Under the pieces are notes generated by a model, which ran no database searches, was not told where the DNA came from, and was given only the letters and a program-made list of their open reading frames with translations. From Silvibacterium bohemicum (GTDB taxonomy: Bacteria > Acidobacteriota > Terriglobia > Terriglobales > Acidobacteriaceae), in contig NZ_LBHJ01000004.1 in the NCBI RefSeq assembly GCF_001006305.1, forward strand, positions 558,001 to 622,000: DNA of 64,000 bases, given 5' to 3'. Position numbers and translations under genes: made by a program. This document shows, in pieces, positions 9,715 to 34,867 of the stretch (position 1 is its first letter; the number at the start of each line of letters is the position of its first letter).

Positions 9715-9866
9715 TTAGGGCTCAGCGTTCAGGGCACAGGGTTCAGGGAGTTCCTGCCCATCACCTGCACGCCACGCGCCCGTCTTTAAATTCGTACTAT
9801 CTTGTCAGTTAGCAGCGCTCAGGGTCTGGGTCTTGCTGCACCCTGAGCCCGGAACGCTGCACCCTG
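9715..9866. repeat. Heptamer-repeat element in the rpoA-rplQ spacer
   Basis: Left arm (+ strand, 9715-9749): five units in exact 7-bp phase, TTAGGGC, TCAGCGT, TCAGGGC, ACAGGGT, TCAGGGA. Right arm (9832-9866), read on the minus strand: CAGGGTG, CAGCGTT, CCGGGCT, CAGGGTG, CAGCAAG. The two arms are inverted relative to each other and share CAGCGTT and CAGGG words, so they can pair imperfectly around a loop of about 80 nt. The element fills most of the spacer. Confidence 0.75.
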
Positions 9867-9869
9867 TAA

Positions 9870-10967
9870 TTAAAAGTTCTCGGTTTCGTTCTGCAGTGCT
9901 ACGTCGTCTTCCAGCTCATCGTCTTCGTCATCGTCGTCGAAGTGGTTGTAGCTGGCGGCGAGCGTCGCGGCCGGCAGCACGGAGGTCGGTCCGGGTACGG
10001 CGTTGCCGTGCTCGTCGATCTTCATGCCCAGGGAAAGCCCCATCTGCGCGAGGATTTCCTTGATCTCGTTCAGCGACTTGCGGCCGAAGTTCTTGGTCTT
10101 CAGCATCTCGGCTTCGGTCTTCTGCACCAACTCGCCGATGGTCTGAATATTTGCGTTCTTCAGGCAGTTGTAGCTGCGGACGCTGAGCTCCAACTCTTCC
10201 ACCGAGCGGTTCAGGTTCTCGTTGCGCAGCTGCATGCGGCCTTCTTCGGCGTGGCTCTCAGCTTCGATCTCTTCCTCGAAGTTGATGAAGATGCTCATGT
10301 GGTCCTTGAGCAGCTTCGCCGCGAGACCGACTGCGTCTGCCGGAAGCACGGAACCGTTGGTCCAGACTTCGAGCGTCAGCTTGTCGTAGTCGGTGATCTG
10401 GCCGAGACGCGCAGCGTCGACAGCATAGTTCACCTTGCGAACCGGCGAGTGCACCGAATCGACCGGGATGAAGCCAATGCCCAGGTCGGAGTCGAAGTTC
10501 TTGTCCGCGGAGATGTAGCCACGGCCGCGCTTCAAGCGCATTTCCATGTCCAGTTTGCCACCTTCGCTGACGGTGGCGATATAGACATCTTTGTCCAGGA
10601 TTTCCACGTCTCCATCGGCTTCGATCATGCCCGAAGTCACAATCCCCGGCTGCTCCGCGCGCAGATACAGCGCCTTCGGGCCCTCGCCGTTCAACTTGAA
10701 GGGAATCTGCTTCAGGTTGAGGATGATGTCGGTCGCGTCTTCCACGACTCCGCCAATCGACTGGAACTCGTGCAATACGCCTTCGATCTTGACTGCCGTT
10801 ACCGCCGCGCCTTCGATTGACGAAAGCAGGGTGCGGCGCAGCGCATTGCCGATGGTGGTGCCGAAGCCGCGCTCAAAAGGCTGGGCGCTGAACTTCCCGT
10901 ATTTATCGGTGAGCGTTTCTGCCTCGACGGCCAAACGCTTGGGTTTTTGAAATCCTCTCCAAAGCAT
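9870..10967 (-). CDS. rpoA: RNA polymerase alpha subunit
   Basis: 365 residues, longer than the usual ~330. The N-terminal dimerisation domain (to about 235) contains [17 protein letters not shown]. The C-terminal domain (about 255-325) has the helix-hairpin-helix region with [17 protein letters not shown], which binds UP elements and activators. An unusual tail follows, with an acidic run [12 protein letters not shown] close to the C-terminus. The ATG at 10967 opens [12 protein letters not shown], and the gene lies between rpsD and rplQ as in most bacteria. The acidic tail could affect DNA or activator contacts; that is inference. Confidence 0.98.
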
Positions 10968-11043
10968 ATCGATATCCTTTTCTCATGCGCAGCGAACGCC
11001 GCGAAGCATTCTGCAACGGCTGCGCGTGATTCTCCTGACTTGA

Positions 11044-11135
11044 GATACCGCTTTCGCGGTTTATTGCTCTCCGGATCGTCTTCGATCCGAAAACTTTCGG
11101 TCTGGCAGAGCACAAAACTGAGCTCTGTGCTCTGC
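11044..11135. other. Three hairpins in the rpsD-rpoA spacer
   Basis: The 175-bp spacer contains CCGC/GCGG around TTTC (about 11048-11059), CGGATCG/CGATCCG with a TCTT loop (about 11072-11090) and a 10-bp stem GCAGAGCACA/TGTGCTCTGC (11105-11114 with 11126-11135). None is followed by a T-run in the minus direction, so they look like RNA-processing or stability structures rather than terminators. Confidence 0.5.
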
Positions 11136-11142
11136 GCCCTGA

Positions 11143-11772
11143 TTACTTGCTGTACAGTTCGACGATCAGCTGCTCGTTGACCGGCAGGTTGACATCTTCG
11201 CGCTTCGGCAGAGCAATCACCTTGCCCGAGAGGTTCGCGCCATCGACACTCAGCCATGCCGGAGCCGGCTGATGGCTCGCGAACTCGCGAGCGCCTTCGA
11301 CAACCGTCAACTTCTGCGAGTTGGGACGAATCTTAATCTCGTCGCCCACACCCACCTGGAAAGAAGGGATGTTCACCTTGCGGCCATTCACTTCAATGTG
11401 TCCGTGACGAACGATCTGGCGAGACTGGCGACGCGAGCTGGCAAAACCAAGCCGGAATACCACGTTGTCCAGGCGACGCTCCAACTGCTGCAAGAGCAGC
11501 TGACCGGTGACGCCGGGGGTACGCGCTGCCTTCTCGTAGTATTCGCGGAACTGGCTTTCGAGGGTGAAGTAGATGCGCTTCGCCTTCTGCTTTTCGCGAA
11601 GCTGCAGGCCGTAGCCGACGATCTTCGCCTTGCGGTCGCGGCCGTGCTGGCCGGGGGCAAAGTTACGCTTCTCGATGGGGCACTTGTCGCTAAAACACTT
11701 GGGGCCCTTCAAAAAAAGCTTCATGCCTTCGCGGCGGCAAAGGCGGCAGACTGCTCCTGTATAACGTGCCAA
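11143..11772 (-). CDS. rpsD: 30S ribosomal protein S4 (TTG start)
   Basis: 209 residues. The conserved N-terminus MARYTG is encoded by TTG-GCA-CGT, so translation must start at a TTG codon (11772), preceded by GAGGAGAATTGTT. The next Met is residue 17, inside the conserved core. Cys9, Cys12, Cys26 and Cys31 form the zinc-binding set seen in zinc-type S4. The S4 RNA-binding domain covers about 98-160. S4 nucleates 30S assembly and in E. coli represses its own operon; here the long spacer to rpsK could hold a control site, but no known pseudoknot was recognised. Confidence 0.97.
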
Positions 11773-11902
11773 AACAATTCTCCTCGTCCCGGCTTCAGCC
11801 CGGACGTTTCATTTCAGAGGCCGACAGGTTTACGCGCTGGCAAGCGCTTCGTCCCAGTCCATCCACAATTTTACAGCAACAGGGTTGCGGGAGGGTGTTT
11901 TA

Positions 11903-11930
11903 CTAACCCTCCCCTAAGCCCTATACCCTA
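11903..11930. repeat. Heptamer tract between rpsK and rpsD
   Basis: Read on the minus strand directly behind the rpsK stop: TAGGGTA, TAGGGCT, TAGGGGA, GGGTTAG in perfect 7-bp phase. It belongs to the same class as the tracts at 9715, 17675 and 18173. Confidence 0.65.
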
Positions 11931-11933
11931 CTC

Positions 11934-12359
11934 TTACACCCTGCGGCGCTTGGGCGGACGGCAGCCATTGTGCGGAATCGGCGTAACGTCACGAATCGAA
12001 CGCACGTCGATGCCTGCGGCAGCCAGTGCACGAACCGCAGACTCACGGCCCGATCCCGGACCGCTCACGCGGACGTCGACCGAGCGGAGACCATGGTCGC
12101 GAGCCTGATTGGCCGCATTCATCGCCGCCTGCTGCGCGGCAAACGGGGTTCCCTTACGCGATCCACGGAAGCCGAGCGAACCCGAGCTCTTCCAGGAGAT
12201 GGTGTTTCCCTGACCGTCGGTAATGGTCACGATGGTGTTGTTGAACGACGCCTGAATGTATACCAAACCGTAGGGGACATTCTTGCGTTCGCGCTTCTTG
12301 AACTTCTTGTTCTTGGCCGCCTTGCCGGCAGAGCCACCCTGCTGCTGTGCTTTTGCCAT
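11934..12359 (-). CDS. rpsK: 30S ribosomal protein S11
   Basis: 141 residues. A Lys/Gln/Gly-rich N-terminal lead (about 25 residues) precedes the S11 core, which contains [31 protein letters not shown] and the closing [17 protein letters not shown]11 lines the platform near the decoding site. Its ATG overlaps the rpsM stop codon in the sequence TAATG, so it is translationally coupled to rpsM. Confidence 0.98.
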
Positions 12360-12745
12360 TAGGTCTTCGCCGTCGCTTTCTTCTTGCCTGCTACCGTGCC
12401 TTTACGCGGTCCCTTACGGGTGCGCGCATTGGTGTGCGTCCGCTGCCCGCGTACCGGCAGGCTGCGACGATGACGGATGCCGCGGTAGGACTGAATGTCG
12501 ATCAGCCGCTTGATGTGCATCGAGACGTCTTTGCGAAGATCGCCTTCGACGTTGCCTTCCTGCTCGATGATCTGACGGATGCGGTTGACCTCGTCTTCGC
12601 CGAGATCCTGGATCTTCTTGAGGGGGTCGACATTCGCGGCCTTCAGAATCCTGAGTGCGCGCGGGTTACCGATCCCGAAGATGTAAGTAAGGCCGATCCG
12701 CGCCTGCTTATTGCGGGGCAAATCGACGCCAGCAACACGTGCCAT
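12359..12745 (-). CDS. rpsM: 30S ribosomal protein S13
   Basis: 128 residues from the ATG at 12745, which opens the conserved [10 protein letters not shown] and has GAAGGA six bases upstream. An in-frame ATG at 12778 would add 11 unconserved residues and is rejected. The C-terminus is Lys/Ala-rich (GKKKATAKT). S13 contacts the P-site tRNA and bridges to the 50S. The stop codon shares one base with the rpsK start. Confidence 0.97.
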
Positions 12746-12794
12746 GTTCTGTCCTTCGTTTGCTTCCGGAAGCTTCACCGCCGGAAGCGGTTAG

Positions 12795-12817
12795 GCAGGT
12801 CTGAATTTCAAACCTGC
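12795..12817. other. Hairpin in the rpmJ-rpsM spacer
   Basis: GCAGGT (12795-12800) pairs with ACCTGC (12812-12817), and inside it TGAA pairs with TTCA. It lies 50 bp upstream of the rpsM start in a 179-bp spacer. It has no T-run and its function is unknown. Confidence 0.45.
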
Positions 12818-12924
12818 AGTGATGAGTCGGGGTTCATCGCAAGCCTTTCTACGGCTAACTAGCCCCTGCCCTTAATCTTGCCGGGCGCGACTCGAATCAT
12901 TCGCAGCCGAAGCCGCGCCAGAAT

Positions 12925-13038
12925 TTAGCCCTGGCGCTGCTTGTGCTTCGAGTTTTCGCAGATCACACGCACCACCCCACGGCGGTGAATGACCTTGCAC
13001 TTGTCACAAATCTTCTTTACCGATGCACGAACCTTCAT
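12925..13038 (-). CDS. rpmJ: 50S ribosomal protein L36 (zinc-binding form)
   Basis: 37 residues, [16 protein letters not shown]...RQG. Cys11, Cys14, Cys27 and the following His32 form the C-C-C-H zinc site of the C+ paralogue. Position between infA and rpsM is the classical one. Too short to appear in ordinary ORF lists, but the sequence is unmistakable. Confidence 0.97.
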
Positions 13039-13041
13039 AAC

Positions 13042-13174
13042 TAACTCCAGCTTCCAGCTTCTAGTTTTTAGCTATCAGCCTGTTCCTTGCGCTACCGGCG
13101 TTTTTGGCCGCCCCGCAGCACAATGTTGATGAAGCCGTCACTCCAGCTAAAGCGAGGAGCGAACGGCTAAAAAG
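13042..13174. repeat. Heptamer-repeat element in the infA-rpmJ spacer
   Basis: Left arm (13042-13083): TAACTCC, AGCTTCC, AGCTTCT, AGTTTTT, AGCTATC, AGCCTGT in exact 7-bp phase. The right arm next to the infA stop (about 13140-13174), read on the minus strand, gives TAGCTTT, TTAGCCG, TTCGCTC, CTCGCTT, TAGCTGG. The word differs from the CAGGG tracts, but the period and AG core are the same. Confidence 0.65.
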
Positions 13175-13393
13175 CTACTTGTAGCGATACACGATCCGCC
13201 CGCGCGTAAGATCATACGGGCTGAGCTCAATCGCTACACGATCGCCGGGAAGTATGCGGATAAAGTTCTTCCGCATGCGGCCCGAGACATGCGCCAGCAC
13301 CTGGTGCTTGTTCTCGAGCTCAACCTTGAACATAGCGTTTGGCAGGGTCTCAAGGACCACTGCCATTACTTCAATCGCATCTTCCTTCGACAA
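13175..13393 (-). CDS. infA: Translation initiation factor IF-1 (TTG start)
   Basis: 72 residues, a complete S1/OB-fold IF-1 (conserved [38 protein letters not shown]). The conserved first residues MSKED are encoded TTG-TCG-AAG-GAA-GAT, so the start is TTG at 13393. Upstream is GGGATAAGG, a modest ribosome-binding site. IF-1 blocks the A site during initiation. Confidence 0.97.
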
Positions 13394-13471
13394 ACCTTAT
13401 CCCGTTTCCGCCGGACCTTAGCCCAGCCCCGCTCGAACAAATATCCTGCTAAAAGCATCGCGTCAAAGCGC

Positions 13472-14221
13472 CTACGTCAGAATCACGGCGCCTTCGGCGG
13501 TCACTGCAACCGTATGCTCGAAGTGCGCGCTCAGACTTCCATCCTGCGTAACTGCTGTCCAGCCGTCGCTCAACACCTGCACATCCGGCTTGCCCGCGTT
13601 CACCATGGGCTCGATCGCGATTACCATACCCTCGCGCAGCTTCTGCCCTTGCCCGCGGCGTCCGTAATTCGGCACCTGCGGATCTTCATGCAGACGCGTC
13701 CCGATCCCGTGCCCTACAAAATCCCGAACCACGCTGAAGCCCTCGGCTTCAACGACTTCCTGAACCGCAGCGCCCACATCGCCCAGCGTTGCGCCCGGCC
13801 GGATGGCCTGAATGCCGCTCGCCAGGGATGCCTGCGTAACGTCCAGCAATTTTTTAATCCGCGGATTGACCTTGTCGCCTACCGCCACCGTAATCGCCGA
13901 ATCGCCGTAAAAGCCGTCGATAATCACGCCGGTGTCGATCGAAACAATGTCGCCATCGCGAAGCACCCGCTCCGCCGACGGAATTCCGTGAACCACTTCC
14001 TCGTTTACCGAGGTGCACAGCACGCAGGGATAACCACGATATCCCTTGAATGCCGGCTTGGCGCCAAACTCGTTCATCTTCTCGACAGCCGCGTTTTCCA
14101 GGTCCAGCGTGGACGCGCCTGGCTTTACAAACTTGCGGACATGCTCGAGAACATCGCGAACTACCTGTCCGCTGCGCCGCATCTTCTCGATCTCCTGCGG
14201 CGTCTTGATCATGATTGCCAT
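13472..14221 (-). CDS. map: Methionine aminopeptidase, type I
   Basis: 249 residues. All metal ligands are recognisable: Asp in SIDTGVIIDGFYGDSA, His in FVGHGIGTRLHEDP, Glu in IAIEPMV and the final Glu in AHFEHTVAVT; HGIP marks the substrate-side His. It removes the initiator Met from nascent proteins. There is no N-terminal zinc-finger extension. The gap to adk is 7 bp, so the two are probably translationally coupled. Confidence 0.97.
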   Translation of the reverse strand: MAIMIKTPQEIEKMRRSGQVVRDVLEHVRKFVKPGASTLDLENAAVEKMNEFGAKPAFKGYRGYPCVLCTSVNEEVVHGIPSAERVLRDGDIVSIDTGVIIDGFYGDSAITVAVGDKVNPRIKKLLDVTQASLASGIQAIRPGATLGDVGAAVQEVVEAEGFSVVRDFVGHGIGTRLHEDPQVPNYGRRGQGQKLREGMVIAIEPMVNAGKPDVQVLSDGWTAVTQDGSLSAHFEHTVAVTAEGAVILT

Positions 14222-14228
14222 GCGCCTA

Positions 14229-14945
14229 TCAGCTCCTCAAGCGCACAACAGCCTTCATTACTTCGGCTGTAACCGCGCTCACCGATTGTTCCCCGTTTAC
14301 CTCTTCGAATCGGCCCAGCGCACGATAATGCTCAACGACCGGAGCCGTCAGCGCGTTATAGGCGCGCATCCTCTCCTCGAAAACCTCTTCCGTGTCGTCT
14401 GAGCGCCGCGCCAGGGGCGTGCCGTCAAGGTCGCACAACTCATCCACCCTGGGCGGCTGCAAGTAGATGTTGTAAATACTCTTGCAAACGGGACAGCTGC
14501 GTCGACCGGTGATGCGACGCAACAACTGATTATAACTTACCTGAATGCTGACAGCAATCACCGGCAAAGCATCTTTGCTGCCTGCCAGATGAAGGTCGAG
14601 CCAATCGGCCTGGCCGAGGGTCCGGGGGAAGCCATCCAGAATATAGCCGGCAGTCGTGTCCGGGGACTTGAGGCGGTCGGCGACCATCTCGTTCACCAGG
14701 TCGTCCGAGACCAACTCGCCACGGTCGAGCACAGACTTGGCGATGATACCGAGAGCGGTTCCCTGGCTGACATTCGCCCGCAGGATGTCTCCGGTAGAAA
14801 TCTGCGGAATGCCCCAAGCCGCCACCAACTCCTTGGCCTGCGTGCCTTTACCGACACCGGGAGCTCCCAGTAAAAGGATAGGACCCGGAGCAAGTTTCCT
14901 TTGCGCCGGGTCATGAATTTGTGGATCGGTTGCGGTCAAGGCCAC
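14229..14945 (-). CDS. adk: Adenylate kinase (GTG start)
   Basis: 238 residues from a GTG directly adjoining the secY stop (TAAGTG), with GGAG in the end of secY as ribosome-binding site. P-loop GAPGVGKGT is at residues 27-35, so the N-terminus is about 20 residues longer than usual. The LID has CPVC...CDLD, a Cys-Cys-Cys-Asp zinc site of the type known from Gram-positive enzymes. It converts AMP and ATP to two ADP. Confidence 0.96.
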   Translation of the reverse strand: MALTATDPQIHDPAQRKLAPGPILLLGAPGVGKGTQAKELVAAWGIPQISTGDILRANVSQGTALGIIAKSVLDRGELVSDDLVNEMVADRLKSPDTTAGYILDGFPRTLGQADWLDLHLAGSKDALPVIAVSIQVSYNQLLRRITGRRSCPVCKSIYNIYLQPPRVDELCDLDGTPLARRSDDTEEVFEERMRAYNALTAPVVEHYRALGRFEEVNGEQSVSAVTAEVMKAVVRLRS

Positions 14946-16862: not shown

Positions 16863-16923
16863 GATTTCCTCGCTCAACGCCGGAAGAGCTGAACTCCACC
16901 GACTCGCTTTTTTTATTTTGCTT

Positions 16924-16958
16924 TTAGCCAGAAGCTAAAAGCTGGGTGCTAACAACTA
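16924..16958. repeat. Heptamer tract behind rpmD
   Basis: TTAGCCA, GAAGCTA, AAAGCTG, GGTGCTA, ACAACTA in 7-bp phase (+ strand); the last unit contains the rpmD stop codon (CTA on this strand). The visible theme is an AGCT/GCTA word repeated every seven bases. Confidence 0.65.
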
Positions 16959-17674: not shown

Positions 17675-17759
17675 TTCAGGGTGTAGCGTTCAGGGTTTAG
17701 GGTGTAAAAGCGAAATGCACCCGTCGGCTACACCCTAATCCCTAACCCCTATACTCTGC
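17675..17759. repeat. Heptamer-repeat element in the rplR-rpsE spacer
   Basis: Left arm (17675-17709): TTCAGGG, TGTAGCG, TTCAGGG, TTTAGGG, TGTAAAA. Right arm (17725-17759) on the minus strand: GCAGAGT, ATAGGGG, TTAGGGA, TTAGGGT, GTAGCCG. Both arms are in strict 7-bp phase and inverted, separated by about 15 bp. The element occupies almost the entire 100-bp spacer and ends one base before the rplR stop. Confidence 0.8.
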
Positions 17760-18116: not shown

Positions 18117-18172
18117 CTCTTCTCTTCCTTCCTAGTAGCGGAACCGCCCTGCGGCCCCGTTCGGCTTTGAAT

Positions 18173-18248
18173 GCAGGATGTAGGGTACAGCGTTCAGGGT
18201 GTAGCAAAACCGTTTTCTAAACCCTAGGCCCCACACCCTGTACCCTGC
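18173..18248. repeat. Heptamer-repeat element in the rplF-rplR spacer
   Basis: Left arm (18173-18207): GCAGGAT, GTAGGGT, ACAGCGT, TCAGGGT, GTAGCAA. Right arm (18214-18248), minus strand: GCAGGGT, ACAGGGT, GTGGGGC, CTAGGGT, TTAGAAA. The arms are inverted, separated by 6 bp, and can fold into one long imperfect hairpin. The right arm touches the rplF stop codon. Confidence 0.8.
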
Positions 18249-18788: not shown

Positions 18789-18857
18789 TTCTAATCCTTA
18801 AAGGCTTGCGAGTCCCGACTCTCATCGTTCCACTGCAGCCAGAGGCCTGGTGCCTCC

Positions 18858-18905
18858 GGGGCTAAAGCCCCTCTTGCTTTGCTTCGGGTGCGAGGGCTAA
18901 AGCCC
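18858..18905. repeat. Two GGCTAAAGCC palindromes
   Basis: GGGGCTAAAGCCCC (18858-18871) and GGGCTAAAGCCC (18894-18905) lie in tandem in the rpsH-rplF spacer, preceded by a small GAGGC/GCCTC hairpin. The same core occurs at 9078-9092 and 27620-27639. Confidence 0.75.
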
Positions 18906-18971
18906 CCGCCTACCCTTACTCTTATCAAGCGCCAACGGCGCGAGATCACAACAGTTAATCATCCCACGAAT

Positions 18972-19010
18972 GGCGCGCAAAGCGCGCGTACGCCTGGAGG
19001 GCCAGTCCTA
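18972..19010 (-). repeat. Stop-codon-linked hairpin repeat behind rpsH
   Basis: Minus strand, starting in the rpsH stop: TAGGACTGGCCCTCCAGGCG, then a spacer and the palindrome GCGCGC-TTT-GCGCGC. It is one of the copies listed at 19506, 26334, 27210, 31075, 34991 and (inverted) 20398. Confidence 0.7.
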
Positions 19011-19406: not shown

Positions 19407-19505
19407 CGTTTCTCCTTCATCCCCCGTTCGCTCGGCATCGTTCTACCGAGAACCAGCGGGAATGTTTAAGACTTGGAGCCGAAGCTCGAAGTCAAACTTG
19501 TCGTT

Positions 19506-19544
19506 GCGCGCAAAGCGCGCGTATGCCTGACGCGGTCAGTGTCA
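19506..19544 (-). repeat. Stop-codon-linked hairpin repeat behind rpsN
   Basis: The minus strand starts at the rpsN stop (TGA) and contains CGTCAGGCATACGCGCGC followed by TTTGCGCGC. The GCGCGC-TTT-GCGCGC palindrome is identical to that behind rpsH; the GGACTGGCC half is diverged. Confidence 0.6.
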
Positions 19545-20326: not shown

Positions 20327-20397
20327 GTTTCCCGTTCTTTCTCTCCGGTGGTCGGAGTGGTATTGCTACCGTGTACCGTTACGGAGGGTCTTCAATT

Positions 20398-20453
20398 GGA
20401 CTTGCCGTCTGGACTTGCCGTCTGGACTTGCCGTCCAGGCAATCGCGCCTTAC
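20398..20453 (+). repeat. Triplicated 13-bp unit of the hairpin repeat, inverted copy
   Basis: Three exact 13-bp steps, GGACTTGCCGTCT, GGACTTGCCGTCT, GGACTTGCCGTCC, are followed by AGGCAATCGCGCC. The last unit plus AGGC matches the core GGACTGGCCGTCCAGGCG of the stop-linked repeats but on the opposite strand. It fills part of the 149-bp rplE-rplX spacer. Confidence 0.75.
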
Positions 20454-22542: not shown

Positions 22543-22664
22543 CAGCCATCAGCGGTCAGCCAATAGCGATTAGTATTTCTCTTTCGTACCAGCAGCGCCG
22601 CCATTCGGAAGAGATTCACCCGGCATTGCCGGAGCCAACCCCTATTCCTAATGGCTGAACCCTG
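22543..22664. repeat. Heptamer-repeat element in the rpsC-rplP spacer
   Basis: Left arm (22543-22577): CAGCCAT, CAGCGGT, CAGCCAA, TAGCGAT, TAGTATT. Right arm (about 22636-22664), minus strand: CAGGGTT, CAGCCAT, TAGGAAT, AGGGGTT. The unit CAGCCAT is shared by both arms in inverted orientation. Confidence 0.7.
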
Positions 22665-24250: not shown

Positions 24251-24373
24251 TTAGCCTTTAGCTATTAGCTCCTAGCTTTCAGCTAGAGCTGTTCTGTATC
24301 CAACCTACCCTGCTCAGCTTCTTGCGCTCACACCCTGGCCGAAACAGCTGATGGCCAGGAGCTAAAAGCTGTC
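24251..24373. repeat. Heptamer-repeat element in the rplB-rpsS spacer
   Basis: Left arm (24251-24285): TTAGCCT, TTAGCTA, TTAGCTC, CTAGCTT, TCAGCTA in exact 7-bp phase. Right arm beside the rplB stop (about 24342-24373), minus strand: GACAGCT, TTTAGCT, CCTGGCC, ATCAGCT, GTTTCGG. The arms are inverted with a loop of about 55 bp. Confidence 0.75.
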
Positions 24374-25274: not shown

Positions 25275-25309
25275 GTCTTCTTAATCCTGCACCCTATCCC
25301 CTGCAATCT
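25275..25309. repeat. Heptamer tract in the rplW-rplB spacer
   Basis: Minus strand: AGATTGC, AGGGGAT, AGGGTGC, AGGATTA, AGAAGAC in 7-bp phase, immediately behind rplW. A looser continuation with GTACAGCCTCAGGGATTAGC lies at about 25240-25265. Confidence 0.6.
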
Positions 25310-25313
25310 GGGT

Positions 25314-27147: not shown

Positions 27148-27209
27148 CTCGTCTTCTCTCCCCATCATGCCTACTCAACTACTGTGGGCACTGAAGGCAT
27201 TTCGTATTT

Positions 27210-27246
27210 GCGCCGGAGGCGCGTTTGCCTGGACGGCCAGTCCTTA
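27210..27246 (-). repeat. Stop-codon-linked hairpin repeat behind rpsJ
   Basis: Minus strand, starting with the rpsJ stop: TAAGGACTGGCCGTCCAGGC, then AAAC and the palindrome GCGCC-TCC-GGCGC. This is the cleanest copy and gives the family core; GGAC/GTCC can form a first small hairpin and the GCGCC arms a second. Confidence 0.75.
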
Positions 27247-27639: not shown

Positions 27640-27645
27640 CTACCG

Positions 27646-28833
27646 CTATTTAATAATTTCCGAGATGGTGCCGGCGCCTACTGTGCGTCCGCCTTCGCGG
27701 ATTGCAAAGCGCAGGCCCTTCTCCATTGCCACCGGAGTGTGCAGCTCGATCTCGAGCGAAATGTTGTCGCCCGGCATCACCATCTCCGTGCCCGCAGGCA
27801 GGGTCGCCGAACCAGTCACGTCCGTGGTGCGGAAGTAGAACTGCGGACGATAGCCGTTGAAGAACGGCGTGTGACGGCCGCCTTCTTCTTTGCTCAGTAC
27901 GTAAATCTCGCCCTTGAACTTGGTGTGCGGCGTGATCGAGCCGGTCTTGGCCAGAACCATTCCGCGCTCTACGTCTTCCTTGGCAATACCGCGCAGCAGA
28001 AGCCCCGCGTTGTCGCCGGCCAGACCTTCGTCCAGCTGCTTCTTGAACATCTCAACGCCAGTGACAACCGTCTTGCGCGTGTCGCGGAAGCCTACAATCT
28101 CCGCTTCCTCGCCCACCTTCACCTTGCCGCGTTCGATACGGCCCGTAACCACAGTACCGCGGCCCGAGATCGAGAAGATGTCTTCGATCGGCATCAGGAA
28201 AGGCTGATCGATCGCACGTGCAGGCAACGGGACATTCGCGTCGACAGCGGCCATCAGCTCGTCCACCGACTTTTCCCACTGGGCCTCACCATTAAGCGCT
28301 CCCAATGCAGACCCGCGAATCACCGGCACATCGTCGCCGGGGAAGTTGTACTTCGACAGCAGTTCGCGAACTTCCATCTCGACCAGGTCGGTCAGCTCGG
28401 AATCTTCGACCGCATCACACTTGTTCAGGAACACCACGATGTACGGCACGCCTACCTGGCGAGCCAACAGAACGTGCTCCTTGGTCTGCGGCATCGGTCC
28501 GTCGGTCGCAGCGACGACCAGGATTGCTCCATCCATCTGCGCCGCGCCGGTGATCATGTTCTTGATGTAGTCGGCGTGGCCCGGGCAATCGACGTGCGCG
28601 TAGTGACGGTTCGCCGTCTCATACTCCACGTGCGCCGTCGCGATCGTGATACCGCGCTCGCGCTCCTCGGGTGCGTTGTCAATCGTGTCGAACGAGCGGA
28701 ACTTGTTGTTCGGGTTGTGCTTCGACAACACCTTCGTGATCGCCGCAGTCAACGTCGTCTTCCCGTGATCAATGTGTCCAATCGTTCCCACATTCACGTG
28801 CGGCTTCGACCGGTCAAATTTCTCCTTCGCCAT
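27646..28833 (-). CDS. tuf: Elongation factor Tu
   Basis: 395 residues. G1 motif GHIDHGKT (Ile where most have Val), [12 protein letters not shown] and the C-terminal beta-barrel domains ending in [11 protein letters not shown]. It delivers aminoacyl-tRNA to the ribosome. Many bacteria have a second tuf gene; only this copy is in the window. Confidence 0.99.
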
Positions 28834-28927
28834 CTTGACTCCCTCTCTCGTTCCTTCAGCGCTGCTGATCTTCCGTTTTCTGTTCCGAACCCCAAGGGAT
28901 CCGCTATTTCCAAACTAAGTAAACCGG

Positions 28928-31009
28928 CTATTTACCCTGGTTCCGGCTGATGATCTCTTCCGAAATCATGCGCGGCGCCTCTTCGTAGCGGGCAAACTGC
29001 ATCGAGTACGAAGCGCGGCCCTGGGTCGAGGAGCGGATATCGTTGACGTATCCGAACATCTCCTTGAGCGGCACCATGGCCTTGATCACCTGCGATCCGC
29101 CGATGTGCTCCATGCCTTCGATCCGGCCACGGCGCGAGTTGATATCGCCGATGATCGTACCCATATGCTCTTCCGGCACTGTAACTTCAACTGCCATCAC
29201 CGGCTCGAGCAGAACAGGGCTGGCTTTTTTCGCCGCATCCTTGAAGGCCATCGATCCGGCAATCTTGAAGGCCATTTCATTCGAGTCGACATCGTGGTAG
29301 CTGCCGTCGAAAAGGGTGGCCTTGAAGTCGACCATCTCGTAGCCGGCGAGCACGCCGTTGTGCAGCGCCTCACGGATACCCTGCTCGGTCGGCTTGATAT
29401 ATTCCTTGGGGACCACGCCGCCCCTGATGGCGTCGATAAACTCGAAGCCCTTGCCCGGCTCGTTGGGCTCCAGGCGAATCTTCACGTGGCCGTAGTTGCC
29501 CGAACCACCGGTCTGACGGATGTATTTACCTTCCGCCTCAGCCAGCTTGCGGATCGTCTCGCGGAATGCCACTCGCGGCTCGCCCACATTGGCCTCGACC
29601 TTGTGCTCGCGCTTCATGCGGTCGACAAGAATTTCAAGGTGAAGCTCACCCATGCCGCTGATGATGGTCTGACCCGAATCGATATCGGTGCGAACCTTGA
29701 ACGTAGGATCTTCATCCGATAGCCGCGCCAGCGCCATGCCCATCTTTTCCTGGTCGGCCTTGGTCTTCGGCTCGATTGCCACCGAAATGACCGGCTCCGG
29801 GAAGGTGATGGCAGACAACGCAACCGGATGCTGCGGGTTGCACAGAGTGTCGCCCGTCTTGATGTCCTTGAGACCCACCGCCGCGCAGATATCGCCGGCC
29901 ATGATCTCGGTGATGTCTTCACGCTTGTTGGCGTGCATCTTCACCAGGCGGCCTACGCGCTCGCTCTTGCCCGTACGGGGATTCAGAATCGTATCGCCAG
30001 TCTTCAAAACGCCCGAGTAAATCCGGATAAAGCTCAGCTTCCCGAAGGGATCGTTGATCAACTTGAAGGCCAGAGCCGACAGCGGCTCCTCGTCCTTCGC
30101 CTCGCGAATCAGAGTCACCGAAGGATCGCTGGGGTCGATACCCTCAACCGCCGGCACATCCAACGGGCTGGGCAGATAATCGACGACCGCATCGAGCAGC
30201 GTCTGAACGCCCTTGTTCTTGAAAGCCGTGCCGCACAGGACCGGGAAAACCTTCATCCCGATGGTCGCGCCACGCAATGCTTTCTTCAGCTCTTCCGGAG
30301 TCGGCGTCTCGCCTTCCAGGAACTTGTGCAGCATCTCATCGTCATTCTCGGCGACGGTTTCGATCAGCTGCATGCGGAAGGCTTCAGCCTTCTTGAGCAG
30401 ATTCTCGGGAACCGGCTCGACCGAGTACTCCGCGCCCATCGTCTCGTCATGCCAGACGATCGCGCGCATCTCGATGAGATCGATGACGCCCTTGAAATTC
30501 GCTTCCGCGCCAATCGGAATCTGAATCGCCACCGGCCGCGCGCCCAGGCGCTTGCGGATGGTCTCGATCACATGCTCGAAGTCCGCGCCGGCCTTGTCCA
30601 TCTTATTGACGAAGCAAATACGGGGAACCTTGTACTTATCGCCCTGCCGCCAGACCGTCTCGGTCTGGGGCTGCACGCCGGAGACGGAGTCGAAGAGCGC
30701 GACCGCGCCGTCCAGAACACGCAGCGAGCGCTCCACCTCGGCCGTGAAATCCACGTGGCCAGGGGTGTCAATAATATTGATACGGATATTCTTCCAGGTG
30801 CAGGTGGTAGCAGCGGAGGTGATGGTGATGCCGCGCTCCTGCTCCTGCTCCATGTAATCCATGGTCGCCGTACCCTCGTGCACTTCTCCGATACGGTGCG
30901 TGATGCCCGTATAGAAGAGAATGCGCTCGGTTGTCGTCGTCTTTCCGGCGTCGATGTGAGCCATGATTCCGATGTTCCGGCAACGATTTAGCGGTACTTG
31001 GCGAGCCAC
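28928..31009 (-). CDS. fusA: Elongation factor G (GTG start)
   Basis: 693 residues. N-terminus [20 protein letters not shown] is encoded with a GTG start at 31009. G motifs [23 protein letters not shown] and NKMD are present; domains II-V follow in order, ending with the [18 protein letters not shown] segment. It drives translocation. Standard place between rpsG and tuf. Confidence 0.99.
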
Positions 31010-31074
31010 AGTATTCTTCTCTCTGCTTCTCTCAAGCCTTTCAGCTCAAGGTTGAAATTATTCTTCCCAGACCA

Positions 31075-31118
31075 GCGCGAAGCGCAATCGCCTGAACGTC
31101 CAGTCCCGGCTAGTCCTA
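31075..31118 (-). repeat. Stop-codon-linked hairpin repeat behind rpsG
   Basis: Minus strand from the rpsG stop: TAGGACTAGCC, then GGGACTGGACGTTCAGGCG, ATT and GCGC-TTC-GCGC. An inserted or duplicated GGACTAGCC precedes the usual core. Confidence 0.7.
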
Positions 31119-31589
31119 CCAGCGGTAGTGCGCGAAGGCCTTGTTTGCTTCGGCCATGCGATGAACGTCTTCCTTCTTCTTCATCGCCGCACCGCGGCCA
31201 TTGGCCGCATCCAGCAATTCGGCGGACAGCTTGTCGATCATGCCCTTTTCGCCGCGGGCGCGACCGTAGCTCACCAGCCAGCGAATGGCGAGCGACGTAC
31301 GGCGCTCGGGATTCACTTCGATCGGCACCTGATAGTTCGCACCGCCGACGCGCCGGGTCTTTACCTCGAGCAGCGGCTTGCAATTCTCAACAGCCTTCTT
31401 GAACAGAGTCAGCGCATCGGTGCCGCCGCCCTTGGCCTCGAGGTTCGTCATGGCGGTATAGAAAATTCCCTGTGCCGTCGACTTCTTGCCGCCCCACATC
31501 ATCGAGTTCACAAACTTCGTCACGAGCGACGAGCTGTAAACCGGGTCAGGAGCAACCTCACGCTTGGCGATATGACCTTTTCTAGGCAT
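31116..31589 (-). CDS. rpsG: 30S ribosomal protein S7
   Basis: 157 residues: [18 protein letters not shown] start, the [21 protein letters not shown] segment (quoted in part elsewhere) and the ending AFAHYRW. It is a primary assembly protein of the 30S head and the E. coli str operon repressor. The stop codon is the first part of the following repeat. Confidence 0.98.
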
Positions 31590-31676
31590 AAATCAAATCT
31601 CTCTCTACTTCAAAACTTGTTTCGGCCTGCGCTTTGGCTCTTGCGGCAAAGCCGCGTGTCGCCGTGCGCGCAGCAC

Positions 31677-32081
31677 CTATTTCTTCTTGCCGCCTGCGGC
31701 TGGTGCTCCAGCCTTGGCGCGCTTGGCACCGTACTTCGACCGGCTTTGCGTCCGCTTCACCACGCCGACGGAATCCAGCGTGCCGCGCACGATGTGATAG
31801 CGCACGCCGGGCAGATCCTTTACACGGCCGCCGCGGATGAGCACAATCGAGTGCTCCTGCAGGTTATGGCCTTCGCCAGGGATGTACGACGTCACTTCAA
31901 TCCCGTTCGTCAGGCGAACACGCGCCACTTTACGAAGTGCCGAGTTCGGCTTCTTTGGCGTCTGCGTGTAGACACGCGTGCAGACTCCGCGCCGCTGCGG
32001 CGAACCCTGCAACGCAGGGGAGGCCGTCTTATACCGCGGTGCGGTGCGACCCTTCCTTACCAGCTGACTGAATGTAGGCAA
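31677..32081 (-). CDS. rpsL: 30S ribosomal protein S12 (TTG start)
   Basis: 134 residues. The conserved N-terminus [12 protein letters not shown] is encoded from TTG-CCT-ACA at 32081, with TAAGGAG six bases upstream, so the start is TTG. The Lys residues in [11 protein letters not shown] and [10 protein letters not shown], where streptomycin-resistance substitutions arise in other species, are the wild-type ones. A short Ala/Gly/Lys tail ends the protein. First gene of the supercluster. Confidence 0.97.
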
Positions 32082-32503
32082 ACCCGACTCCTTACCAATC
32101 CAAACCGTTTCAAATTCCTAACCATCGGACGCGGCCCAAAAGCCGCCCCACAACACGATCCGGACGCGCAAGCATCCGAACCAGCGAAGCTTCGCTTCGC
32201 GCCTTACCCCAAAACTTCAATCCCAGACGAGAACCCCGACGGTGGCCGCGCGTAACTTCGAACCCGCTTATTCAGCAGGCCGCAAAAGTAGCCGACTCCG
32301 TTTCGCTGATTCCGGCCCACATAGTTTGCCAAGGTGGCAAATGTCGCAGGCGCCTGTGCGATACGTCCCCATCCTTGCTTCCGGCTGGGGCTCACAGAAA
32401 TTACGCGCCGGAGATCCACTGCTACCGGCTGCTTCTGTGATGGTTGTTGCCTGAGCCTCTCGTCTCTCCGCTCATACAGGAAAAACAAGCACACTCGTGG
32501 AAC
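32082..32503 (-). promoter_or_regulatory. Long leader of the supercluster
   Basis: About 420 nt lie between the predicted promoter and the rpsL start. Two perfect palindromes stand out: TTTGCCA-AGG-TGGCAAA (32325-32341), and GCGAAGC-TTC-GCTTCGC (about 32183-32199), related to the GC-palindrome part of the stop-linked repeats. No convincing gene is encoded. The leader could carry autoregulation or antitermination sites, but no known motif was recognised. Confidence 0.5.
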
Positions 32504-32509
32504 CTTTTA

Positions 32510-32538
32510 AGAGTAGCAAGAGCAACCCCGTCCGTCAA
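32510..32538 (-). promoter_or_regulatory. Main promoter of the str-S10-spc-alpha supercluster
   Basis: Minus strand: TTGACG (32538-32533), exactly 17 bp, TACTCT (32515-32510), followed by TAAAAGG. This is the best promoter match upstream of rpsL and is correctly oriented. Confidence 0.65.
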
Positions 32539-32704
32539 CGGGACGAACGCGAATTTCGCTTCCCTGCAGAGATTTTCTCACGGTTCCAGGATATTTCGAA
32601 CGAATCCCCTTCCCCTGCTCTCTGAAAAGCGAAATACAAGGGAAGATTTGCGGAATTTCCAGCATACGCAAAACGCCTAATTCCTCTCTGCTAGATTGCA
32701 AAGT

Positions 32705-34780
32705 ATGCCCCTTCATCGCCTCGCTGCCCCTGCTCTTCTTGGCACCTTTGCATTTGTGTCCTTTGCAGCCTTCGGCCAGACCGCCGCCGCCCCGACACAT
32801 GATCCACGTATCGCAGCCATCATTCATTCTCTCGAAAAGGTTCGCACTCTCGGGGAGACTGAACTTTCGCCTGATGGCAACCTGATCGCCTGGGAAGTAA
32901 GCGGCGATGGCATCCAGGTGGCGTCGCTCGACAACCCAAGCCATCCCCATCCCGTTACGGCTTGCGCAGCCGGCGCTAAAGGCGAAGAAAGCGGCCTTGC
33001 CTGGTTGCCCGATTCCAAGCACCTGGCCTTCTTTTCCGACTGCACCGAGAACGGAAAGGCGGGAGACAAAAAGACCGCCATCTTCGTTGCCGATGCCGAC
33101 TCAACGGCAGCCCCACACCTGCTCGCCCCTCTCAACGGCTTTGCCGAGAGCCTTGAGTACTCTCCCGATGGCAAGTTCCTCAGCTTTCTCTATGTGGAAG
33201 GGGCGACGCGTCCGTCGGGAGCCCTGGCCGCCATGAAGCCGCCGTCTGGAGTGATTGGCGTCGAGGGGTTGGAGGTGCAGCGGGTGGCCGCGGTCGACGC
33301 CAGCGGCGGCAATCTGACCCAGATCACCCCCGCCAATCTCCATGTCTACGAGTTCAGCTGGTCAAGCGACGGAAAGAATCTGGCGTTCATAGCTGCCCCG
33401 CCCCCCGGAGAAAACAATTGGTGGGTGGCGAAGCTTTACACAAAGCGGGTTGGACGCCTGTATCAGGCCGCCAGCAGCTCCCAACCGGAAGAAGCCCTGA
33501 TCACAGAAAGTCCGAAAGTCGCCTTTGACCCCAACACAACCCCCGGCCCGCTTCACGGCCTGCAACTCGCCGTGCCGCGCTGGTCGCCTGACGGGTCAGA
33601 AATCGCTTTCATCGGAGGACTGATGTCGGACCAGGGCGTGACTGGCGGCGATATCTACGTCATCCCGGCTGCCGGCGGCGAGGCCAAGAACGTCACTCCC
33701 GACCGTGCCTCCAGCCCGGCCTGGATCGAGTGGGTCGACAATCAGCAGCTGGGCGTAGCAGAAACCAAGGACGCGCAGTCGCACCTCTTCGTTTACAACA
33801 TCGAAACCGGCCAGGAGTCATCGGAGTACAACGCCACCCTGCCAGCCACCGTAGGCGCGGGCGGACTTCAAATGCGCATTTCTACAGCGGGGAACGAGAT
33901 TGCTTATATTCAATCTTCGTTCGAGCATGCGCCCGAAGTCTGGGCCGGCCCCCTCGGCGATCTCAAGCAGATCACGCACTACAACGATGCGCTGAAACCC
34001 TCATGGGGCAAGTCCGAGTCAGTCGACTGGAGCAATGACGGCTTCCACGTGCAAGGCTGGCTGCTTTATCCGGCCGATTATGACCCGGCGAAGAAATACC
34101 CCATGATCGTCCTGATTCATGGAGGCCCATCCTCGGTCACGCTCCCCCGCTGGCCTTCGACCGGCTTCGGCGGCGTTCCCTTTTCCGCGCTCGGCTACTT
34201 CGTGCTTCTGCCCAACCCCCGCGGAAGCTATGGCGAGGGAGAGAAATTTACCGCAGCCAACCGCAAGGACTTCGGCTACGGCGACCTTCGCGACATTCTT
34301 GCCGGAGTCGACGCCGTTACCCGCAAATATCCGGTCGATCCCCAGCGCGTGGGCGTTGCCGGCTGGAGCTACGGCGGGTTCATGTCCATGTTTGCCGTCA
34401 GCCAGACCCATCGCTTCCGCGCGGCCGTCGGCGGAGCCGGCGTCTCCGACTGGCTCAGCTACTACGGAGAGAACTCCATCGACCAGTGGATGCTCCCCTT
34501 CTTCGGCGCATCCGTATATGACGATCCCGCCGTTTACGCCAAAAGCTCGCCCATCAACTACGTCAAGCAGGTCAAAACGCCAACCCTACTCGTCGTAGGC
34601 GATCGCGACGGCGAAGGCCCCGCGCCGCAGTCCTTCGAGTTCTGGCACGCATTGCGGGACGAAAATGTTCCGACGCAACTCGTGGTCTATCCCAACGAGG
34701 GACACCGCTTTGTGGACCCCGCACACCAGATCGACGTCCTCGAACGGGCGCTCGGCTGGTTTGACGAATATATGAAGTAG
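32705..34780 (+). CDS. Secreted S9-family prolyl oligopeptidase-like peptidase
   Basis: 691 residues from the ATG at 32705 (a TTG at 32696 is less likely). A signal peptide (LAAPALLGTFAFVSFAAFGQ) is followed by a WD40/beta-propeller-like region (about 45-400; repeats of the SPDGxxIAW, SPDGKFLSFLY and SSDGKNLAFIA kind) and an alpha/beta-hydrolase domain (about 430-691). The catalytic triad is recognisable: Ser555 in GWSYGG, Asp in VGDRDGEGP (about 634) and His in NEGHRF (about 667). It probably cleaves short peptides in the periplasm. It is divergent from the ribosomal promoter. Confidence 0.92.
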   Translation: MPLHRLAAPALLGTFAFVSFAAFGQTAAAPTHDPRIAAIIHSLEKVRTLGETELSPDGNLIAWEVSGDGIQVASLDNPSHPHPVTACAAGAKGEESGLAWLPDSKHLAFFSDCTENGKAGDKKTAIFVADADSTAAPHLLAPLNGFAESLEYSPDGKFLSFLYVEGATRPSGALAAMKPPSGVIGVEGLEVQRVAAVDASGGNLTQITPANLHVYEFSWSSDGKNLAFIAAPPPGENNWWVAKLYTKRVGRLYQAASSSQPEEALITESPKVAFDPNTTPGPLHGLQLAVPRWSPDGSEIAFIGGLMSDQGVTGGDIYVIPAAGGEAKNVTPDRASSPAWIEWVDNQQLGVAETKDAQSHLFVYNIETGQESSEYNATLPATVGAGGLQMRISTAGNEIAYIQSSFEHAPEVWAGPLGDLKQITHYNDALKPSWGKSESVDWSNDGFHVQGWLLYPADYDPAKKYPMIVLIHGGPSSVTLPRWPSTGFGGVPFSALGYFVLLPNPRGSYGEGEKFTAANRKDFGYGDLRDILAGVDAVTRKYPVDPQRVGVAGWSYGGFMSMFAVSQTHRFRAAVGGAGVSDWLSYYGENSIDQWMLPFFGASVYDDPAVYAKSSPINYVKQVKTPTLLVVGDRDGEGPAPQSFEFWHALRDENVPTQLVVYPNEGHRFVDPAHQIDVLERALGWFDEYMK

Positions 34781-34867
34781 GGCTCAGGGCTCATATTTAG
34801 GGTTTAGGGTTTAGGGTTCAGGGTTCAGGGCTCATAGTTAGGGTTCAGGGTTCAGGGTTCAGAGCTC
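34779..34867. repeat. Heptamer tract starting in the peptidase stop codon
   Basis: From the TAG stop onward the + strand reads AGGGCTC, AGGGCTC, ATATTT, AGGGTTT, AGGGTTT, AGGGTTC, AGGGTTC, AGGGCTC, ATAGTT, AGGGTTC, AGGGTTC, AGGGTTC, AGAGCTC. Eleven units are exact 7-mers and two are 6-mers at regular places, suggesting a higher-order block. This is the longest and most regular tract in the window and resembles TTTAGGG telomere-type DNA in composition. Confidence 0.9.

Follow-up and report, generated by a model that had tools for sequence, protein, structure and literature searches.

The ribosomal-protein cluster of the soil acidobacterium Silvibacterium bohemicum raises the question of why so many of its spacers carry short units in strict 7-bp phase when the repeated word differs from one spacer to the next. 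That heptamer repeats are over-represented in bacteria has been on record for years, as passages of PMC4692102 and PMC4679880 recount, and the cases built on a single word have so far been explained one by one, through quadruplexes, regulator sites or slippage. Here the arrays are located inside the cell's most essential operon, and one phylum, often one genome, combines many words with a single layout, so that layout becomes separable from sequence. The number of beats, the anchoring at stop codons and the pairing of arms are what persists.

Heptamer arrays in the ribosomal-protein cluster

Within the window, by which we mean the whole 64,000-nt stretch of DNA analysed, the 26 spacers that reach 20 nt or more (3,007 nt in total) contained 12 period-7 self-match segments with a score of at least 8, compared with a mean of 0.26 and a maximum of 3 in 200 dinucleotide shuffles; each of the other periods from 3 to 12 gave 0 or 1 segment. 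Scanning for arms, defined as five YAG cores at a 7-nt step with no more than two mismatches among the 15 core letters, returned 25 rows, which were merged by eye into 13 arms (rows of one arm lie in registers shifted by 7) distributed over 10 of the 26 spacers, and the shuffles yielded 0.13 rows per set (Table 1). Chance and low complexity are rejected as the source of these arrays. The earlier note, written from the letters alone, had described at least ten spacers in strict 7-bp phase with an AG core recurring at one position of the unit and arrays in contact with the stop codons of rpmD, rplF and an S9 peptidase gene, and all of these features were recovered; the excess of period 7 over shuffled controls, which it had named as a check, is likewise present in these spacers and excludes the outcome of no excess for them. 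Its statement that most cases have two arms stood in part, since both arms were found by the scan in only three of the ten arm-bearing window spacers (rplF-rplR, rplR-rpsE and rpoA-rplQ), whereas most strong arms of the wider set described below have an inverted partner. Weaker second arms are visible by eye in some of the other window spacers.

Table 1. Heptamer arrays in the window. Cluster gene names were assigned from gene order and protein starts, with rpoA and fusA confirmed by an NCBIfam search of 5 proteins; the S9-peptidase label reflects a match to dipeptidyl-peptidase Dpp5 with a score below the family cut-off.
Spacer or gene	Place	Positions	Strand	Units	Core letters	Remarks
rpoA-rplQ	17 nt before rplQ start	9716..9746	+	TAGGGCT CAGCGTT CAGGGCA CAGGGTT CAG	15/15	TRF row 9717-9748
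rpoA-rplQ	3 nt after rpoA stop	9836..9866	-	CAGGGTG CAGCGTT CCGGGCT CAGGGTG CAG	14/15	
rpsD-rpoA	1 nt after rpsD stop	11111..11141	-	CAGGGCG CAGAGCA CAGAGCT CAGTTTT	13/15	period-7 segment 11118-11141
infA-rpmJ	9 nt before rpmJ start	13048..13078	+	CAGCTTC CAGCTTC TAGTTTT TAGCTAT CAG	15/15	
rpmD-rplO	4 nt after rpmD stop	16921..16951	-	TAGCACC CAGCTTT TAGCTTC TGGCTAA	13/15	
rplR-rpsE	17 nt before rpsE start	17677..17707	+	CAGGGTG TAGCGTT CAGGGTT TAGGGTG	14/15	
rplR-rpsE	1 nt after rplR stop	17728..17758	-	CAGAGTA TAGGGGT TAGGGAT TAGGGTG TAG	15/15	
rplF-rplR		18174..18204	+	CAGGATG TAGGGTA CAGCGTT CAGGGTG TAG	15/15	second (inverted) arm
rplF-rplR	1 nt after rplF stop	18217..18247	-	CAGGGTA CAGGGTG TGGGGCC TAGGGTT TAG	14/15	
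rplP-rpmC		22014..22044	+	CAATCCC CAGTGAA CAGCCGT CAGTTGC CAG	14/15	
rpsC-rplP	18 nt before rplP start	22543..22573	+	CAGCCAT CAGCGGT CAGCCAA TAGCGAT TAG	15/15	
rplB-rpsS	12 nt before rpsS start	24252..24282	+	TAGCCTT TAGCTAT TAGCTCC TAGCTTT CAG	15/15	
rplW-rplB	3 nt after rplW stop	25280..25310	-	CAGATTG CAGGGGA TAGGGTG CAGGATT	14/15	
S9-peptidase-like ORF 32696-34780	on the stop	34779..34870	+			expanded one-orientation array, AGGGYTY type; first YAG core is the TAG stop of the ORF

This excess is unevenly spread across the genome. A sampled 400 kb of the same contig held two period-7 segments at a score of at least 12, below the codon-phase periods 3, 6 and 9 there. Pattern counts, which cover the whole genome, gave 92 matches to three phased YAGGGNN units (overlapping matches counted separately) and five to three phased YAGCTNN units, with none for the reversed-pattern control.

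Unit number, words and position of the arrays

Among 101 loci we found 547 segments of period 7 and 63 of period 8; every other period up to 13 gave between 0 and 5, and the shuffles gave 0.4. The shared period with differing words that the earlier note had pointed out is thus present well beyond the window; period 7 is dominant, but it is not a strict rule because octamer arrays with an equal number of units exist. The commonest arm length is 4.4 to 4.6 units at either period, corresponding to about 31 to 36 nt, and YAG runs fall off sharply past five cores (372 runs of four, 325 of five, 19 of six and nine longer). By a strict count, which divides one word family into many, the 927 arms contain 345 consensus words, with a median of seven per array-bearing locus. 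Quadruplexes are ruled out as a general cause, as only 17 of these arms are capable of forming one. Word sets are specific to each genome, arrays are gained, lost or exchanged for other words at orthologous spacers, and although many relatives carry them, their presence is patchy across the phylum. Paracidobacterium acidisoli, the closest relative with a name, has few, with two period-7 segments and one period-8 segment in the 27 spacers of L071. A search of Rfam 15 with four sources returned no match at the gathering score for the window and loci L214 and L120, and a single Acido-Lenti-1 match in L046; no family was matched by the arrays of these sources. Within the literature collection searched, including by genus name, we found no description of such arrays in acidobacteria.

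Five-prime arms begin a median of 4 nt past the stop codon, 75% of them within 8.5 nt and 90% within 47 nt (443 arms). Outside the ribosomal-protein operon (800 kb), 22 of the 33 stop flanks in regions that bear arrays have an array within 10 nt, where uniform placement would give 21%, as do nine of 14 stop flanks in regions of at least 150 nt (4% under uniform placement), while seven of 29 start flanks have an array this close. Places in genome G000 that were found by pattern behave similarly (20 of 34 stop flanks versus 13%, and 8 of 18 versus 6% in regions of at least 150 nt). The quantity that is kept is about five cores per arm together with a position right after the stop codon, a regularity that the earlier note had not recognised. 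Stops in all three frames occur in 142 of 435 five-prime and 180 of 304 three-prime arms, compared with 73 and 70 when columns were permuted, an enrichment that is possibly a side effect; because 107 five-prime and 17 three-prime arms have no stop in sense, providing three-frame stops by means of steps (7 and 8) that are not multiples of 3 was rejected as the purpose of the arrays.

Within units, some positions are held and others vary freely. Variability is concentrated in particular columns (variance 0.50 versus 0.36 in 908 arms), as expected for a heptamer unit with conserved and free positions. When columns were classified symmetrically and compared with a neutral simulation, 166 of 2000 core letters had diverged versus 136 of 591 loop letters, and the column classification alone would yield about 22% in the simulation. 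This comparison replaces a first test (352 of 3409 core and 383 of 1615 loop letters), which was biased because columns were classified from one genome only; arrays selected by pattern, whose column conservation is also biased, were excluded from the evidence for constraint (the 35-array unit comparison and the count of near-identical arms below).

Paired arms and their possible role

An inverted partner is present for 77% of 260 sampled strong arms, in agreement with the inverted arms seen by the earlier note, and about 23% have no detectable one, a figure that includes spacers too short for a partner; a direct-orientation partner was also scored for 37%, compared with 2.3% in the control. 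The two arms usually share a word: inverted word match reached at least 0.6 in 92.7% of 303 two-armed spacers, compared with 43.7% of 1,215 control pairs in which an arm was set against one from another spacer of its genome, and the words differed in 12 of the 303. The possible long imperfect RNA hairpin foreseen from the sequence is supported by predicted folding of 224 pairs chosen for two-armedness, in which a median of 81% of arm letters pair across arms (mean z of -5.6 versus shuffles). Whole array spacers fold with a z of -3.4 (150 sampled), and spacers without arrays are likewise more strongly folded than shuffled sequence (z of -1.65, 150 sampled). The units are not matched in register across arms, a result that goes against the earlier note, which had named unaligned units as a refuting outcome: over 243 arm pairs, pairing was on average no different when the units of the 3' arm were permuted (mean fractional rank 0.498), and because unit order is unmatched there is no sign of compensatory pairing. 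Near-perfect arm pairs occur at a few loci (L126, L090, L214 and L138). Template-switch or snap-back copying between arms, and selection for exact pairing, find no average support, since unit order is free.

By analogy with the reported action of REP elements in E. coli, we propose, with a probability of roughly 0.4, that the arms are stop-anchored RNA stems acting as elements at cistron ends. An arm would consist of about five cores of three to five letters each (often YAG plus two) at a step of 7 or sometimes 8, separated by two to three free letters and usually starting within about 10 nt of the stop codon. A second arm with the same word inverted, usually further on, would let the transcript form a stem, built of some five short helices, whose foot is at the stop codon, and this stem could slow or shape ribosome release, hinder 3'-5' decay or partly stop transcription between cistrons. 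Many words would serve, and words could be exchanged in evolution, because a match of the cores alone would be required. Period, unit count, stop anchoring, the word common to both arms, the predicted stem and core constraint are shown by the data, whereas action in the form of RNA, with ribosomes or RNA turnover as what is acted upon, is our inference. Stop anchoring, the inverted word match, the fold z-scores, core constraint and the enrichment of four-T runs described below speak for such a stem. On the other side, a stem requires neither the fall-off past five cores nor the identity of cores within an arm, and arms without a partner, direct partners, unmatched unit order, mixed-word pairs, the folding of array-less spacers and relatives whose long spacers lack arrays (L229 and L111) all count against it.

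The fall-off of YAG runs past five cores, and the commonest arm length being alike at periods 7 and 8, are what a docking array would predict if each subunit or domain of a protein, bound either to DNA or to RNA, read a single core and an arm offered about five of them, with facing arms marking the meeting of two assemblies and differing words reflecting different or drifting readers. Constrained cores, free spacer letters with variability confined to columns, and the occurrence of single arms fit this arrangement as well. Nevertheless, the word count would demand many readers, and in 200 kb of the congener G001 runs of 7, 11 and 14 cores are as frequent as runs of five (one each); we regard a protein reader as possible but doubtful.

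The turnover of arrays and words at orthologous spacers, and the genome-specific word sets, could also arise if the arrays were the ends of selfish or mobile repeats (REPIN- or MITE-like) spread by an enzyme and tolerated beside stop codons. The species' own genome has 23 near-identical arm pairs (distance of at most 3), where 300 shuffles averaged 10 and reached at most 23, a weak excess, and a mean nearest arm distance of 3.57 versus a shuffle minimum of 3.75. Moreover, copies of Y1 transposase genes correlate with array number in 20 genomes (Spearman 0.61, p 0.004, uncorrected for kinship). In PMC3733652, as far as its relevant passages go, many REP families are described as ending in GTAG and tied to RAYT transposases, and TIRtrons, found also in acidobacteria, as Y1 transposase genes between long terminal inverted repeats. 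Repeated inverted sequences in acidobacteria are common to TIRtrons and our arrays, but at 23 Y1 loci examined (25 of the 107 Y1 matches) arrays lay within 500 nt on both sides at only one, with two different words, and on one side at one more. RAYT-like mobilisation was rejected, as the copy-number correlation is not accompanied by a flanking association at these loci. In addition, the array-rich G001 has one Y1 match, the loops compared are unlike one another by eye, and core letters are constrained after the birth of an array, which together make mobile spread unlikely.

Runs of four T at the 3' arm end, found in 16.8% of 321 arms versus 3.4% in matched array-less spacers, are the kind of feature expected if the arms were intrinsic terminators or attenuators adjusting the relative amounts of adjacent ribosomal proteins. 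(The matched comparison supersedes an earlier one, 47 of 222 versus 2.7%, whose control was not spacer-matched.) Despite this five-fold enrichment, most arms lack such a run and single arms occur, and we consider termination a very improbable general role. Least probable of all is that the polymerase slips preferentially by steps of 7 and leaves the arrays behind as mutational debris, an idea that PMC4679880, in the part concerned, credits to an earlier repeat survey: the perfect expansions in G001, with roughly 15 to 22 copies, and the expanded tract behind the S9-like peptidase favor it, but the unit number has a mode and falls off sharply, variation falls in fixed columns, inverted partners and stop anchoring are left unexplained, and in 35 five-core arrays of one word family in genome G000 neighboring units were alike in 14 of 102 comparisons (17.5% expected), compared with 13 of 68 at distance 2 and 11 of 34 at distance 3. 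Despite the long perfect expansions in the congener, these 35 arrays also do not support the heptamer-copying mechanism suggested in the earlier note.

Comparison with known repeats

The STRR elements, heptanucleotide repeats of filamentous cyanobacteria, were the nearest analogy drawn in the earlier note, and a likeness to heptamer repeats of other phyla is supported by what is described in PMC4692102 and PMC4679880. The Nostoc GGGGA(C/T)T repeats form arrays of 39-179 nt with few inverted pairs, and the portion of PMC4692102 that describes them mentions no link to stop codons; like the acidobacterial arrays, they are tandem heptanucleotides, dispersed and mostly intergenic. In marine Beggiatoaceae, according to passages of PMC4679880, TAACTGA is a single word, mostly in direct orientation, repeated two to six times immediately ahead of start codons. 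These too are heptamer arrays close to the edges of genes, in some cases within ribosomal-protein operons, and AACTGAG-like words occur here, whereas our arrays are mostly paired, anchored at stops and built from many words. The E. coli REP elements form stems, and 446 of 4,072 are found no more than 15 nt downstream of a stop codon, a position in which they reportedly make ribosomes stall (PMC12306157, in the part that treats them); the study cited there, Liang 2015, places 260 of 496 within this distance. The REP/REPIN type that goes with RAYT is characterised by GTAG-tagged palindromes of 20-40 nt. REP elements and the acidobacterial arrays thus share stem formation and a fraction near stops, but REP elements lack the tandem heptamer build.

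What is new here is the five-beat length rule, stop anchoring, the shared inverted word, unordered units, core constraint, the diversity of words and the patchy presence across the phylum. The separation of layout from sequence weakens explanations tied to a particular word, such as quadruplexes, and makes an old question testable by reporters.

The acidobacterial arrays appear to be of one kind with the GGGAATC arrays of Xanthomonas. Passages of PMC4692102 describe these heptamers (GGGAATC or GGGANTN) as one word explained by G-quadruplexes, and both sets have heptamer units with conserved and free positions and about four units per array, are often in inverted pairs and lie near the end of the upstream gene. 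In contrast to the single word of Xanthomonas, the arrays described here use many words, include octamers and are dense in the ribosomal-protein operon, and the quadruplex-forming G-tracts are absent from nearly all of them. We offer as a speculation, which we hold to be rather improbable as a whole, that a word-independent five-beat code exists at bacterial gene ends, whose reader would count some five beats, spaced 7 or 8 letters apart, and tolerate nearly any word provided that its cores agree from beat to beat; the Xanthomonas, acidobacterial and perhaps cyanobacterial heptamers, so far treated as isolated curiosities, would then form one functional class tied to the translation stop.

Period-7 arrays across spacers, families and genomes

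The window covers the ribosomal-protein supercluster of Silvibacterium bohemicum (genome G000, 6.46 Mb) from rpsL to rplQ on the minus strand, with gene names assigned by gene order and protein starts; NCBIfam confirmed rpoA and fusA among the five proteins scanned. The best rpsE matches among named contigs were from Paracidobacterium acidisoli and further members of the Acidobacteria, most in the family Acidobacteriaceae and many represented by metagenome bins. Short cores recur at 7-nt steps inside arms of the window spacers, and among the 26 spacers that are 20 nt or longer, segments scoring at least 8 numbered 12 for period 7 and 0-1 for each other period from 3 to 12, with a mean of 0.26 period-7 segments after shuffling. 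Five phased YAG cores (at least 13 of 15 letters) were present in ten of these spacers (13 arms, with register shifts merged by eye) compared with 0.13 rows per shuffled set, bearing out the earlier note's claim of 7-nt phase in at least ten spacers. Behind the S9-peptidase-like ORF lies an expanded array in a single orientation, whose first core is the ORF's own TAG stop codon.

The comparison comprised 101 loci, namely the orthologous spacers of 20 relatives, 80 named contigs and the window (1,716 unique spacers, 187,529 nt; five genomes occur both as relatives and as named contigs, and identical spacers were entered once). At a score of at least 12, there were 547 period-7 and 63 period-8 segments, 0-5 for every other period from 2 to 13, and 0.4 period-7 segments per shuffle; periods 14, 16 and 21 rose along with 7 and 8. 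With 40 loci added (2,383 unique spacers), the counts were 872 and 113, respectively, and 1-9 for periods 4-6 and 9-11. By strict consensus, which overcounts word families because free letters at times enter it, 927 arms carry 345 words, with a median of seven words per array-bearing locus (99 of 141 loci).

A sample of the phylum (one locus from each of 18 other families and two from the same family; score at least 10) contained frequent period-7 arrays in f22, f26, f12 and f47 (11 to 30 segments), f12 also having a few segments at other periods, and few in f25 and f59 (4 and 5). The single loci of the other 12 families had no period-7 segment, and two of them had one period-8 segment; since their spacers are short (medians 4.5 to 31.5 nt), there is less room for arrays. 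One same-family genome had 24 period-7 segments and the other none, and some relatives with long spacers, such as G122 (L229) and Terriglobus roseus (L111), lack arrays. A sample of G000 spoke against a simple genome-wide excess of period 7: 400 kb contained two period-7 segments (score at least 12), about 200 nt from each other at a putative ftsL-rsmH border, judged by eye from the letters. Within the present data, the ribosomal cluster is far denser in arrays than the rest.

Unit number, placement and pairing of the arms

On both strands of the extended spacer set, step-7 runs of three, four, five and six YAG cores numbered 325, 372, 325 and 19, with 9 longer runs; no run of five occurred at steps 6 and 8, and one shuffle of the set gave no run of four. 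Measured independently of any word, the commonest arm length was 4.4-4.6 units (31-32 nt) at period 7 and about 4.5 units (36 nt) at period 8, with shorter and longer arms forming a tail; unit number is therefore better kept than length in letters. Outside the operon, runs with four, five, six and more cores numbered 11, 31, 4 and 4 at places found by pattern in G000; in a further genome, G014, 200 kb had 9 runs of four, 6 of five and 1 of six. The congener G001 broke the rule of five: in 200 kb, 5 runs had four cores, and there was a single run of each of 5, 7, 11 and 14 cores. That runs become rare beyond five cores does not reflect an incapacity for expansion, because G001 carries heptamer expansions, perfect or nearly so, of about 15 to 22 copies; these are candidates for unstable loci. 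Octamer arrays of the GAAACCTT and AATTACCC types, in L133, L138, L146 and other loci, have unit numbers similar to those of heptamer arms.

The five-prime arm starts a median of 4 nt past the upstream stop codon (90% within 47 nt; 443 arms), and the three-prime arm ends a median of 15 nt ahead of the next start (311 arms). In the ribosomal operon, YAG ran with gene direction in 262 five-prime arms and against it in 101, the corresponding numbers for three-prime arms being 44 and 228; by eye, the orientation looks reversed in L214 (f26) relative to other loci. Outside the operon (800 kb from three genomes, with ORFs called mechanically and arrays in 31 intergenic regions), an array lay within 10 nt of 22 of 33 stop flanks against 21% under uniform placement, of 9 of 14 against 4% in regions of at least 150 nt, and of 7 of 29 start flanks. 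At the pattern-found places of G000, the stop-flank figures were 20 of 34 against 13% and, in regions of at least 150 nt, 8 of 18 against 6%.

An inverted word match of at least 0.6 was found in 92.7% of 303 spacers with two same-period arms, compared with 43.7% of 1,215 control pairings in which the three-prime arm came from another spacer of that genome; 12 of the 303 pairs carry different words, one such pair being common to L108, L110 and L114. For 77% of 260 sampled strong arms an inverted partner exceeded the 98th percentile of a separate control, and 37% also had a direct-orientation partner. In predicted folds of 224 arm pairs, a median of 81% of the letters of an arm paired with its partner arm (z -5.6). 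Alignment of units across the arms, named in the earlier note as a test, was not borne out on average: exact unit permutation did not change mean fold energy (fractional rank averaging 0.498 with a standard error of 0.018; n=243). A few pairs in the tail are near-perfect. Array-less spacers too fold beyond shuffles (z -1.65, against -3.4 for array spacers; 150 each), and we therefore conjecture that there may be a demand for a stem behind the stop, from whatever source.

Divergence and possible roles of the arrays

Under a symmetric column definition, the spacers of the 20 closest locus pairs, which are mutually non-independent, differed at 166 of 2000 core sites, 136 of 591 loop sites, 221 of 1713 flank sites and 177 of 349 variable sites, the last figure being inflated by column choice; with columns defined in one genome, 79 spacer pairs drawn from 16 locus pairs were usable. 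Because neutral simulation of the column classification predicts 21.7% for core columns, the core is held back. Variation was concentrated in certain columns (variance across columns 0.50, null 0.36), and in 55% of 766 arms, against 33% expected, the two columns varying most were adjacent. Orthologous spacers often had the word swapped for another, or the arms missing. The rpsD-rpoA spacer of L098 has about 325 nt between its two arms that are absent from L091 and seem to hold a small ORF.

Since stop anchoring, the shared word and the predicted stem fit such a role, the arms would, by analogy, be an RNA element at cistron ends acting like REP sequences, to which we assign a probability of roughly 40%. 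T-runs found at the end of 16.8% of 321 three-prime arms, against 3.4% in matched array-less spacers, suggest that a minority may also work as terminators. The unmatched unit order of the arms, single arms and the fall-off after five cores are not consequences of a stem; they speak more for a reader having about five sites, which we regard as doubtful. A mobile origin, which we consider unlikely, would account for the turnover and genome-specific words but not for the core constraint. Y1 transposase copy number correlates with array number (Spearman 0.61, 20 genomes), but among the Y1 loci examined (23, holding 25 of 107 matches) one had arrays on both sides. Slippage alone fails on unit count, fixed columns and inversion.

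Neighboring elements and published heptamer repeats

Short conserved stretches adjoin the downstream gene in rpsK-rpsD, rpmD-rplO, rplF-rplR, rpsH-rplF, rpmJ-rpsM and orthologous spacers, and are recognizable by eye across relatives though the arms change; they may be ribosomal-protein leader RNAs. Rfam gave no match anywhere in the window. Another hairpin-like sequence, made up of GGACTGGCCGTCCAGGC or a variant with a GC-rich palindrome behind it, is found directly after stop codons, and in rpmD-rplO of some congeners it occupies the place of the G000 and G001 heptamer arms.

Coordinates of further elements in the window and in other loci
Feature	Sequence	Coordinates	Strand	Remark
Conserved stretches beside downstream gene	Window	11773-11933, 16863-16955, 18117-18248, 18789-19007, 12746-12924		By eye
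Second hairpin-like sequence (GGACTGGCCGTCCAGGC type)	Window	27148-27243, 19407-19541, 18789-19007		
13-bp direct repeat TGGACTTGCCGTC	Window	20397-20435		Three perfect copies, rplX-rplE spacer
Acido-Lenti-1 RNA match	L046	1042-1088	Minus	Above gathering score
Heptamer expansion, G001	L187	2095-2231		
Heptamer expansion, G001	L188	2172-2328		
Heptamer expansion, G001	L189	2128-2229		

Literature searches naming acidobacteria or two of their genera found no paper on acidobacterial arrays. According to PMC4692102, the GGGAATC repeats of Xanthomonas resemble the acidobacterial arms in period, four-unit mode, free and fixed positions, inverted pairs, proximity to the upstream gene and differing places in sister species. 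They are discussed there as quadruplexes, an explanation rejected for most acidobacterial arms, of which only 17 of 927 are capable of forming them. The cyanobacterial heptamers and the TAACTGA repeats of Beggiatoaceae (PMC4679880) are likewise relatives in form. From data on this phylum, we propose that the Xanthomonas, Beggiatoaceae, cyanobacterial and acidobacterial repeats may constitute one word-independent class.
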